Shown here piece after piece: positions 57,606 through 60,849 of a stretch of DNA of 64,000 nt (the stretch's first letter is position 1; every line of letters starts with the position of its first letter). This stretch comes from Haloferax sulfurifontis ATCC BAA-897 (GTDB lineage Archaea > Halobacteriota > Halobacteria > Halobacteriales > Haloferacaceae). The stretch is taken from assembly GCF_000337835.1 (NCBI RefSeq), contig NZ_AOLM01000004.1, positions 186,001 to 250,000 on the forward strand, written 5' to 3'. The position numbers and the translations under genes are program-made. The notes under the pieces were generated by a model. The model was not told the origin of the DNA, did not search any database, and saw only the letters and a list, made by a program, of their open reading frames with translations.

Positions 57606-57935
57606 TCAGCGACGGTGGCCGAGCGGCTTTTTCTGTTCGACTTCGATTTCGAGGTGGACGCTGTCGGGGAACTCCTTGAGGCCGACTTCGCGGGCGATCT
57701 GGTCCGCGCCGTGGATTTCGAGGCGGCGGGTGTAGACGGGGTAGGACCACGACGAAAACTGGTCGCCGGGCTGGAGCGTCCGGTACTGCGGGACGCTCAC
57801 CTGTTTCGGCTGGTCGGAGTGGGGGCCGCGGCACTCCGCGCCCTTCCGCTCGATGAATTGCTTGAGGTCGTCGACCACCCGGTCGAGGACCGCCTTATCA
57901 CCGCTTTGAAAGGTGAGTTTTGTGACGAAGGCCAT
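57606..57935 (-). CDS. Ribosomal protein uS10 paralogue
   Basis: A 109-residue protein. FVTKLTFQSGDKAVLDRVVDDL, GPHSDQPKQVSVPQYRT, WSYPVYTRRLEIHG and EVGLKEFPDSVHLEIEVEQK follow the uS10/mL48 fold. The loop region differs from the standard archaeal S10, and no translation genes lie nearby, so this is a stand-alone paralogue, not the canonical rpsJ. Such copies are common in haloarchaea and their function is unknown. Confidence 0.83.
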   Translation of the reverse strand: MAFVTKLTFQSGDKAVLDRVVDDLKQFIERKGAECRGPHSDQPKQVSVPQYRTLQPGDQFSSWSYPVYTRRLEIHGADQIAREVGLKEFPDSVHLEIEVEQKKPLGHRR

Positions 57936-58093
57936 AGCTGGGTACTACTCCTTGTTGCACGCTCCGACGGTAAAAGCGCATCTACACGAACCGGTGACTC
58001 GGGCCCCCACGACCCGAATCCCGAGTGAAAAACCGTGCGAACGCGCTACAGGCTCCGATACCCTCTTAAAGGGTGGCACGTTTATTTCGGGTA

Positions 58094-58549
58094 ATGGCAG
58101 TCGAAGCGGTCAGCGCTGGAGCCATTCTCTTCCGCGACACCCGCGGCCGGAGGGAGTACTTACTCCTGAAGAGCCGTCCCGGGGACTGGGAGTTCCCGAA
58201 GGGCGGGGTCGAAGGGGACGAGGAGCTTCAGCAAACGGCAATCAGGGAAGTCAAAGAGGAGGCGGGAATCCAAGATTTCCGTCTCATCGACGGCTTCCGC
58301 GAGGACTACAGCTACGTCTTCGAAGCGAACGGTACGACGATTCACAAGACGGTCCACCTCTTTATCGCGCGGTCGTTCGAGGCGTCCGCGGAGCTCTCGA
58401 CCGAGCACCGCGACCTCCAGTGGCGCGACTACGAGCAGGCCATCAACACCATCACGCAGGACGGCCCCCGCGAGATATTCGAGCGCGCCCACGAGTTCCT
58501 CGACGAACTCGCCGCGAAAAACGAGGGCGAACACAAGTACCTGAAGTAG
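58094..58549 (+). CDS. Bis(5'-nucleosyl)-tetraphosphatase-like Nudix hydrolase
   Basis: A 151-residue Nudix protein starting at ATG 58094. The whole Nudix box GX5EX7REUXEEXGU is present from Gly in KGGVEGDE to EEAGI (near 36-58). AGAILFRDTRGRREYLLLK and HLFIARSF are typical of the diadenosine tetraphosphatase group. It would hydrolyse NpnN-type dinucleotides in the cytoplasm. The AT-rich TTTATTT is just upstream of the start. Confidence 0.9.
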   Translation: MAVEAVSAGAILFRDTRGRREYLLLKSRPGDWEFPKGGVEGDEELQQTAIREVKEEAGIQDFRLIDGFREDYSYVFEANGTTIHKTVHLFIARSFEASAELSTEHRDLQWRDYEQAINTITQDGPREIFERAHEFLDELAAKNEGEHKYLK

Positions 58550-58712: not shown

Positions 58713-59705
58713 GTGAGCGACGCCGCCGACCGCGACAGCGACCGTGACCCCGAGTTCGCCTTCGAGCTACGGGTCTGCCGCTGGGCCGAGCGCGCGTGGC
58801 ACCCCGACGGCCCGCGCCCCGCGTTCGTCGCCCGACAGCTCGGCACCCGAGAGCGCCGCTGGGACACCGTCGTCGTCGAGGTCGACCCCGAGGCGTTCGC
58901 CGCCCGACGCGCCCTCTCGACCGACGGCTTCGACTCGGACCTCCTGCGCGTCGTCCGCCACGCGCCCGCCGAGTGGGCGTGGTACAGAGACGCCGTCCCC
59001 GAACCCGACTTCCCGTGGCGACACGTCGTGCCGGCGGTCCACCGCGCCGCGGGGCTCGGGCTCGTCGAGAAACGCCGCGGCTCGCGGAACCGCGTCGAGT
59101 ACCGACGGACTGCGCCGTACCCCGACTGGGTCGAGCGCGTCGTCGCCATCGAGAACAAGCCGGACCTCGACGCCAGCGCCGCGCGCGCGCTCGCCGACCA
59201 ACTCGAACACGACGTGTCGCGGGCGCTCGCAGACGAGGTCTGGGTTGCCACCGAGGTGACGGGCCGACGGGTCGAACCCGCCCTGCTGGAGGACCTCCCG
59301 GTCGAAGTCGGCATCCTCGGCGTCGACGGCGACTCGGCGGAGGTGCTGTGGCACCCGAGTTCGCTCTCGCCGGACCCGGCGGACGCCCGGCGGCGACTCG
59401 TCCTCGCCGAACGCGCCTTCGACCGCGGCTGGCGGAACTACGTGGACACGATGCGACCCGACTGCCGTCACTTCGAACTCGACCGGCGCGGCCGCGCGCT
59501 CGTCCCGCGGTGCGCCGCGAAAGACTGCTATCAGAGCCAACGCGAGTGCGCCCACTCGTGTCCGTCGTTCGAGCCGGAGCCGCCGGCGTGGCGGATGAAG
59601 GGGTGGCCCATCGAGGGCGGCCCCGGAAAGGGTGTGCGCCGGATTCTGGAGGCACGGCGCGAGCGCGAACGAGACCGCGCCGAACGCGGGAGTGAGAACG
59701 CCTAA
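58713..59705 (+). CDS. DUF5787-family protein with nuclease-like motifs
   Basis: A 330-residue protein with a GTG start, recognised as the haloarchaeal DUF5787 family by FAFELRVCRWAERAW at the N-terminus. In the middle, PDWVERVVAIENK reads as P-D-x(8)-E-x-K, the catalytic pattern of PD-(D/E)xK nucleases, and QLEHDVSRALADEVWVAT resembles their next helix and strand. Cys 22 and a C-terminal cluster (CAAKDCYQSQRECAHSC) could bind a metal or iron-sulfur cluster as in Cas4/AddB-type nucleases. No such activity is known to me for the family, so this is inference. Confidence 0.75.
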   Translation: MSDAADRDSDRDPEFAFELRVCRWAERAWHPDGPRPAFVARQLGTRERRWDTVVVEVDPEAFAARRALSTDGFDSDLLRVVRHAPAEWAWYRDAVPEPDFPWRHVVPAVHRAAGLGLVEKRRGSRNRVEYRRTAPYPDWVERVVAIENKPDLDASAARALADQLEHDVSRALADEVWVATEVTGRRVEPALLEDLPVEVGILGVDGDSAEVLWHPSSLSPDPADARRRLVLAERAFDRGWRNYVDTMRPDCRHFELDRRGRALVPRCAAKDCYQSQRECAHSCPSFEPEPPAWRMKGWPIEGGPGKGVRRILEARRERERDRAERGSENA

Positions 59706-59730: not shown

Positions 59731-60330
59731 ATGGAACGATTCCAGAACACGAGTCTGCCGGACTGGGATTGGTGGGGAAAGCTGTGGCCGACGCCGGGCG
59801 AGACGCTTCGGGACCTCGGGTTGTCGCCGGGCGACACCGTCGCCGAAATCGGCTGTGGAAACGGCTACTTCGCGTTGCCGGCGGCGCGAATCGTCGCGCC
59901 GGCCACGGTGTACGCGGTCGACCTCGACGACGACCTCCTCGCGGAACTCGACCAGCTCGCCGCCCAGCAACGCATCGACAACGTGGTATCGGTCCGCGGC
60001 GACGCCCGCGAGCTATCGGGGCACCTCGCCGACCCCGTCGACGTGGCGCTGTTCGCCAACGCGTTCCACGGGGTCGACGACCCCGACGAGTTCCTGACGG
60101 AAGTCGAGTCGATTCTCGCCGACGGCGGCCGGTTCGTCGTCGTCAACTGGCGGCCGCTCCCCCGAGCGGAGACGACCGTCGCGGGCGAGCCTCGCGGCCC
60201 GCCGACCGACCTGCGCCTCGGTCCCGAGGAGACCGCGGCGATGGTCGCAGAGGCGACCGACCTCGCGGCGACGGCGGAACTCGACATCCCGCCGTACCAC
60301 TACGCGCTGGTGTTCGAGCGGCGAGAATAG
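59731..60330 (+). CDS. Class I SAM-dependent methyltransferase
   Basis: A 199-residue enzyme starting at ATG 59731. Motif I is VAEIGCGNGYFALPA, the acidic end of strand 2 is VYAVDLDDDLL, and DVALFANAFHGVDDPDEFL and FVVVNWRPLP complete the fold. It belongs to the methyltransf_11/31 type. Target unknown. It starts 25 nt after the DUF5787 gene, on the same strand. Confidence 0.88.
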   Translation: MERFQNTSLPDWDWWGKLWPTPGETLRDLGLSPGDTVAEIGCGNGYFALPAARIVAPATVYAVDLDDDLLAELDQLAAQQRIDNVVSVRGDARELSGHLADPVDVALFANAFHGVDDPDEFLTEVESILADGGRFVVVNWRPLPRAETTVAGEPRGPPTDLRLGPEETAAMVAEATDLAATAELDIPPYHYALVFERRE

Positions 60331-60348: not shown

Positions 60349-60849
60349 TCAGACGACTTCCACGTCGACCTCGTCGCGCTCGACGGCGAGGCGGAACGTG
60401 GGGACGGTCCGGTAGACGACCTCGATGACGCCCTTGCGGCGGAGGCTCTGGAGCGCGCGGCGCACGTCGTCCACGTCGGGGTCGATGTCGAACTCCTCGC
60501 GGAGCTTGTTGAGGACGCTGACGACGCTCTCGGAGCGGTCGTCGGGGCCGGCGACGACCTCGAAGACGCGGGCTTCGAGCGAGGGGACGCGGATGACGCT
60601 CGGCACGGACTCCGCCTCGTCGTCGCCCTCCACGCCGGGTTCGACGCCGACGAGTTCGGCGGCCTCCGCGGTGGCGCGGATGAGGCTGTTGTCGTCGCGG
60701 TAGTAGTAGTCTTTCAGCTCGGATTCGAGGTAGCGGTGGACCTCGCTCCCGCTTTCGAGGTCCCAGCGGTTCTGTAACTCCTTGTTCTTCGTCGGCTGGA
60801 GCCGGACGATGTCGGCGAGGCGTTCTTCCGCCTCGTCGGAGAGCGTCAT
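60349..60849 (-). CDS. DUF5797-family winged-helix protein
   Basis: A 166-residue protein. It begins LSDEAEERLADIVRLQPTKN and has two winged-helix-like parts (ELQNRWDLESGSEVHRYLE; LQSLRRKGVIEVVYRTV). A conserved YYYRDDNSLIRAT stretch is present. This matches the haloarchaeal DUF5797 family of predicted DNA-binding proteins. It is convergent with the methyltransferase gene. Function unknown. Confidence 0.82.
   Translation of the reverse strand: MTLSDEAEERLADIVRLQPTKNKELQNRWDLESGSEVHRYLESELKDYYYRDDNSLIRATAEAAELVGVEPGVEGDDEAESVPSVIRVPSLEARVFEVVAGPDDRSESVVSVLNKLREEFDIDPDVDDVRRALQSLRRKGVIEVVYRTVPTFRLAVERDEVDVEVV

Follow-up and report, generated by a model that had tools for sequence, protein, structure and literature searches.

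Some proteins of the PD-(D/E)xK fold are not proven nucleases, and the DXO/Rai1 decapping enzymes have a fold related to it. RecB-like nucleases carry a QxxxY motif. The protein of PDB entry 3dnx, which we take to be a member of the MmcB family (PF06319), and the proteins XisH and SfsA are treated here as presumed members of the PD-(D/E)xK superfamily. MmcB is described in a passage of PMC9578287 as an SOS-regulated PD-(D/E)XK endonuclease that protects Caulobacter from mitomycin C. In the Cas4/AddB staple, as given in a passage of PMC3466216, one N-terminal cysteine is combined with three C-terminal ones, and passages of PMC3466216 and PMC5704561 ascribe four conserved cysteines to Cas4.

The gene studied here lies in the window, the whole stretch of 64,000 nucleotides of Haloferax sulfurifontis ATCC BAA-897 DNA that was analysed, and its 330-aa ORF matched the PF19100 (DUF5787) profile with 323.3 bits against a curated cut-off of 25. 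The family comprises two paralogue groups, A (to which this gene belongs) and B, and PF19100 was matched in the Pfam search by 81/81 A and 28/28 B members. Residue conservation and a predicted structure indicate that DUF5787 is probably catalytically active, as a phosphodiesterase (nuclease) that depends on metal ions and belongs to the PD-(D/E)xK superfamily. The superfamily is already known, the family is without an assigned function as far as it was searched (partly with weak searches), and its layout is unusual. A specialist would find this useful rather than startling. The searches found no function for either of these genes, which nearly all members of an archaeal class carry, the genetic workhorse Haloferax among them, and the superfamily assignment, the named candidate catalytic residues and a Nudix partner make the role of DUF5787 directly testable.

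Features of the locus and its immediate surroundings are collected in Table 1. A scan for sigma-70 promoters and terminators at the gene found none, as expected with an archaeal host.

Table 1. Features of the DUF5787-A gene and its neighbours, with positions in the window and residue numbers of the encoded protein
Feature	Position	Strand	Basis and remarks
DUF5787 gene, A paralogue	58713..59705	+	GTG start, 330 aa, stop 59703-59705; PF19100, E 2.2e-96
Helix 14-28	58752..58796	+	Model and conservation; invariant E14, E18, E26; C22 near-invariant (116/121)
Strands 37-44 and 49-57	58821..58883	+	Model and conservation; R41-Q42, G44, R48 invariant; proposed catalytic D51, codon 58863-58865
Inserted winged helix-turn-helix, residues 73-135	58929..59117	+	Structural matches to MarR, Zur, BlaI
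D138-K149 of the PDx8ExK string	59124..59159	+	D138 variable; E147/K149 the proposed catalytic pair, on or just after strand 140-148
Helix 154-170, then strand 175-181	59172..59255	+	Model and conservation; Q163, D167 invariant
Strands 200-205 and 208-213, after the core	59310..59351	+	Model
C-terminal Cys4 module, C251-x15-C267-x11-C279-x3-C283	59457..59570	+	Four invariant Cys; putative metal site
Nudix hydrolase gene, probable operon partner of DUF5787-A	58073..58549	+	PF00293; tblastn across A loci
uS10-like gene, divergent, flanking the Nudix-DUF5787 pair	57606..57935	-	PF00338; tblastn
DUF5797 gene, convergent, downstream of DUF5787	60349..60849	-	PF19110; tblastn
Class I methyltransferase gene, directly downstream of DUF5787	59731..60327	+	Present in few loci

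Sequence relatives were sought in several collections. None of the 81 A members and 28 (of 38) B members searched with Pfam matched a nuclease family at E values up to 1, NCBIfam and PADLOC gave no match to the DUF5787 protein, PHROGs gave a single meaningless match at 0.16, and the PDB yielded unconvincing matches only, whether searched with the single sequence or with a profile. The literature search found no paper naming DUF5787; phrase searches on PD-D/E-XK likewise found none, which says little as the term was probably split by indexing. HVO_A0006, which part of PMC4389544 presents as a fragment related to methyltransferases and bearing a PD-(D/E)XK domain, is to all appearance another protein.

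Predicted fold and inserted winged helix

The structure of DUF5787-A was predicted with AlphaFold2 using 81 A sequences (pLDDT 84.6, pTM 0.86). Its elements follow in the order helix 14-28, strands 37-44 and 49-57, helices and a hairpin (59-132), strand 140-148, helix 154-170, and strands 175-181, 200-205 and 208-213, and the model contains an alpha-beta core in which the Asp and ExK strands are followed by a helix and a strand. The sequence-only reading had proposed a PD-(D/E)xK nuclease from the string P137-D138-x8-E147-N-K149, which is present in the protein, and from a helix and a strand behind it, which reappear in the model as helix 154-170 and strand 175-181. The fold it proposed was borne out by structure prediction and structural search, which gave nuclease-fold neighbours.

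Both structural comparison and Foldseek placed nuclease-fold proteins nearest to the DUF5787 core. The top structural match was 3dnx (Z 10.7, rmsd 3.4, 137 of 146 residues aligned), and the PaqCI restriction enzyme (8em1 and 8epx, Z 9.1 and 8.8) and the XisH-type chains 2inb and 2okf (Z 8.8 and 8.7) were also recovered. Six chains reached a Z of at least 8, five of them on the core and the sixth being a MarR winged helix. In Foldseek, 3dnx ranked first (E 5.8e-05) as the sole PDB chain under E 0.001, and the 49 further rows listed were mostly winged-helix regulators, with PaqCI at rank 12. The nuclease-fold proteins 2ph7, Card1, SfsA and BsaWI stayed below Z 8, where a match possibly reflects just a common arrangement. 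The best viral model match was a phage protein named MmcB (E 6.9e-04, the sole viral one under 0.001), and its superposition was poor (TM 0.20 and 0.34, rmsd 14.1). A PD-(D/E)xK nuclease fold is supported for DUF5787 by this predicted model.

The nearest structures differ from DUF5787 in what surrounds the core. XisH-type chains and PaqCI resemble it in core fold (Z 8.7-9.1) at only 9-14% identity, and the XisH-type chains, at 128-129 residues, are too compact to accommodate either the insert or the Cys4 module. The same applies to 3dnx, which has the PD-(D/E)xK core but a chain of 146 residues without room for a winged helix and a Cys4 module.

MmcB was also examined as a possible family for DUF5787. 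Its profile (PF06319) matched none of the 81 A and 28 B members searched. A set of viral MmcB-like proteins was assembled from 36 loci, of which a regular expression kept 30; the phage protein used as seed itself scores 15.2 bits with the Pfam MmcB profile, short of the cut-off of 22. Profile-profile comparison of DUF5787 with these 30 proteins gave 2.5%, against 2.4% for the best of five unrelated controls, and what aligned was an LPxxxG motif, which is suggestive and not significant. A sequence search of the PDB with the MmcB seed pair found nothing, and the MmcB profile gave 10 weak matches and none over the cut-off in 59 Halobacteria genomes, the Caulobacter control being matched. Membership of DUF5787 in MmcB was rejected because there was no profile match and the profile-profile score was no better than that of an unrelated control.

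In the model, a winged helix (about residues 73-135) is inserted within the catalytic core, where it separates the Asp strand from the ExK strand; this insertion is new here. Residues 73-135 matched the winged helices of MarR (3bpv, Z 8.1), Zur (3mwm, Z 7.8) and BlaI (1sd4, Z 7.2) with rmsd of 2.0-2.5 over 61-63 residues, and weak Pfam matches to PaaX (8/81 A members), Rrf2 (two) and GntR (one) were seen at best E values of 0.023-0.11. We know of no described PD-(D/E)xK member with a winged helix inside its catalytic core, and if confirmed, DUF5787 would add this domain layout.

Conserved residues and the C-terminal cysteines

Conservation was assessed in 83 A and 38 B sequences (121 rows), which are related and include near copies. 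Thirty positions were identical in 121/121 rows, that is, in both paralogues: E14, E18, E26, R41, Q42, G44, R48, D51, R65, P137, W139, E147, P150, L152 and L160 in the first half of the list, and Q163, D167, D174, T180, P196, G200, E233, R234, G239, R241, C251, C267, C279, C283 and R294 in the second. K149 was Lys in 120/121 rows and Asn in one B copy (L158, ENNPD, genome G017); this copy may be inactivated, or the Asn may be a sequence error. D51, E147 and K149 are the candidates for the conserved catalytic D, E/D and K of the superfamily.

The Asp of the PD string, which the sequence-only reading had taken as catalytic, fared differently. D138 was Asp in 101/121 rows (71/83 A, 30/38 B) and was replaced most commonly by Asn and Glu (seven each), and also by Gly, Gln, Arg and Ala; as it varies across the family, a catalytic role for it is unlikely, and D51, on strand 49-57 and invariant, is the likely one. 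The string by itself is weak evidence, since its loose form PDx5-30[DE]xK arose in 14% of 5000 shuffles of the protein, against 0.26% for the exact PDx8ExK. Among the residues to which that reading pointed, E147, K149 and four of the C-terminal cysteines proved conserved across the family, and D138 and C22 (116/121) less so.

The D, ExK and Q constellation falls on the expected elements of the predicted fold. In the genome that the window comes from, copies A and B are 38% identical and both keep these residues, which points to strong selection on the constellation. This bears on the possibility that DUF5787 is a catalytically inactive relative, its nuclease fold and winged helix serving as a regulator or scaffold. 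The good match of the winged helix to transcription factors would fit such a protein, as would the neighbours XisH and SfsA, for which we know of no established nuclease role; with D51 and E147 kept in 121/121 rows and K149 in 120/121, in two paralogue groups, it appears improbable.

The sequence-only reading had further noted one N-terminal cysteine and several C-terminal ones as recalling Cas4/AddB. C22 and five C-terminal cysteines (C251, C267, C272, C279 and C283) are indeed present. C22 was replaced in 5/121 rows (Ser in three A and one B, Ala in one B), C251, C267, C279 and C283 were invariant in 121/121, and C272 was absent from the list of 30 invariant positions. In A, the spacing x15-x11-x3 was kept in 82/83 rows; in B, the first gap ranged from 12 to 28, the second was 12 in 37/38 rows and the third was always 3. 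Because the four C-terminal cysteines are invariant and C22 is lost in five rows, the metal site is most simply placed in the C-terminal Cys4 module, and the pattern suggests, without proving it, a self-contained site for zinc or Fe-S.

These counts bear on the comparison with Cas4, AddB and Dna2, the iron-staple nucleases. A 5'-3' exonuclease of the Cas4/AddB type, with N- and C-terminal cysteines jointly holding an Fe-S staple, would belong to the same superfamily and would share with DUF5787 the D, ExK and Gln residues (Q163 follows the ExK strand), a near-invariant cysteine in the first helix and cysteines at the C-terminal end. The number, spacing and dispensability of the cysteines differ, however: five are conserved rather than one plus three, and it is the N-terminal one that can be lost. 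The helix that carries the Gln has the sequence Q-L-x-x-D, its D167 being invariant, rather than QxxxY, the winged-helix insert is an addition of DUF5787, and none of 81 A members and 28 (of 38) B members matched a Cas4 or RecB-type profile at E up to 1. Cas4 and AddB were not among the 50 structural-match rows listed, an absence that excludes nothing. An enzyme of the Cas4/AddB type is accordingly very unlikely, which corrects a tempting analogy, and on sequence and model DUF5787 is best filed as its own family within the PD-(D/E)xK superfamily.

The tail itself was predicted less well than the core. Modelled alone with 38 sequences, the C-terminal part gave pLDDT 65 and pTM 0.36, and no fold is claimed for it because this stand-alone model was too poor to search; in the full DUF5787-A model, blocks 281-290 and 291-300 had mean pLDDT of 73 and 55. 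DUF7140 (PF23601, a 42-residue domain) has a Cys-x15-Cys-x12-Cys pattern close to the Cys-x15-Cys-x11-Cys of A, and weak matches to it were found in 42/81 A members at E up to 1 (best E 0.0011). The inspected matches (five of eight proteins) scored 12.5-15.9 bits, under the cut-off of 27, none of the 28 B members searched with Pfam matched, and the fourth cysteine of DUF7140 lies upstream (CxxC) whereas that of DUF5787 lies downstream. A DUF7140 cysteine module also occurs elsewhere in this genome (L237, G000:C10:14044-14169), with spacings x15 and x12, at the C-terminus of an unrelated 341-aa membrane-like frame.

Distribution, gene neighbourhood and proposed role

Of 194 Halobacteria genomes searched with PF19100, 193 carried the family, each with a score above the cut-off, and 191 had two or three matched places (a place may be a gene fragment). 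One matched place each was found in genomes G161 and G183, where the single copy was of B type by score (B profile, 504.8 and 373.6 bits), and none in G021. The Nudix neighbour of A gave weak matches of 24 bits in G161 and G183, against 285 bits in G052; with a B-type copy only and a weak Nudix match, the A region appears to be absent as a block from these two genomes, through an assembly gap or loss. G021, a 1.9-Mb genome (98% complete) from the same order as the window, was the sole one of the 194 without DUF5787, and it also had no Nudix or B-profile match.

In a phylum-wide sample, 52/294 genomes matched, the matches listed being all from the window's own order, and among 14 control genomes only Haloferax volcanii matched PF19100. 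Among the matches listed, the four named proteins at 96-97% identity to that of the window were from Haloferax species. The phage collection searched held no DUF5787 relative, and of 150 pattern matches on viral contigs none was one. In a midpoint-rooted tree of 31 A and 38 B sequences, A and B stood on opposite sides of one branch with support 100/100. They are two old paralogue groups, and the split fits a duplication before the class diversified.

For the neighbourhood of A, the best 80 of at least 418 confirmed relatives were fetched, a set that leans to Haloferax, Halorubrum and their kin. Of these best 80 loci, 78 had a tblastn match to the Nudix gene, and in 66 the Nudix stop lay within 250 nt before the first conserved DUF5787 residues, in the same orientation; the gap exceeded 400 nt in 10 of the 78. 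Within the same 80, the uS10-like gene was matched in 76 and the downstream DUF5797 gene in 49, both on the opposite strand, and as these often frame the pair, Nudix and DUF5787 probably form one transcription unit. The class I methyltransferase was matched in 5 of the 80 loci, all Haloferax, and is therefore regarded as a recent neighbour. In an annotated relative, the Nudix gene is named bis(5'-nucleosyl)-tetraphosphatase and the uS10-like gene uS10/mL48 family ribosomal protein. At the B loci (about 7 kb each), the Nudix gene was matched in 1/38, and no clear operon partner of B was seen among its neighbours, where high-GC shadow frames muddied the picture.

The close, co-oriented Nudix gene raises a serious rival to a DNA nuclease, namely RNA 5'-end processing in which the Nudix protein would remove a cap or triphosphate end and DUF5787-A would cut or degrade the RNA. 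Its annotation in the relative, the divergent and convergent genes flanking the pair at many loci and the kinship of the fold with that of DXO/Rai1 would all suit such a pathway, as would the lack of an RNA exosome in Haloferax volcanii stated in the abstract of PMC10470531. Winged helices, on the other hand, usually bind duplex DNA, B is without a Nudix partner, the two genes are well separated in the 10 A loci noted above, and the remainder of the case comes from gene adjacency. RNA processing deserves to be kept in view and is, on balance, unlikely. A bolder version is rather improbable: Halobacteria would have invented a two-paralogue winged-helix PD-(D/E)xK family before diversifying, and A with Nudix would form a module that takes caps off the ends of RNA (or of damaged nucleic acids) and cuts them. 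If true, this module would provide a step of decay or repair to a lineage in which the model species has no exosome.

For the preferred reading, an active nuclease, catalysis, bound metals, a DNA substrate and a role in repair are what we infer from the computed fold, conservation, distribution and gene neighbourhood. D51, E147 and K149 would form, with help from E18 and Q163, an active site that holds one or two divalent metal ions and cuts a phosphodiester bond. The winged helix between the Asp and ExK strands may grip duplex nucleic acid beside this site, and the C-terminal Cys4 metal site may stabilise the tail or aid substrate binding. Since A and B share a catalytic set that is retained throughout Halobacteria, a class-specific housekeeping role is proposed, most likely in repair, as a DNA endonuclease directed by structure or damage. 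DNA repair appears the likeliest setting because of the near-universal gene pair, a winged helix of the duplex-binding type and a fold nearest to 3dnx, of the MmcB kind; taken alone, and drawn as it is from analogy and distribution, this setting is put forward tentatively, as possible rather than probable.

The small uS10-like protein is a constant companion of the Nudix-DUF5787 pair, for which no explanation is offered. Among the plasmids searched, one Natronorubrum record carried a DUF5787 relative: the 828-kb Natronorubrum bangense replicon NZ_CP031306 (L195), labelled a plasmid, has the whole block of uS10-like, Nudix, DUF5787 and DUF5797 genes, and this replicon therefore carries core genes.
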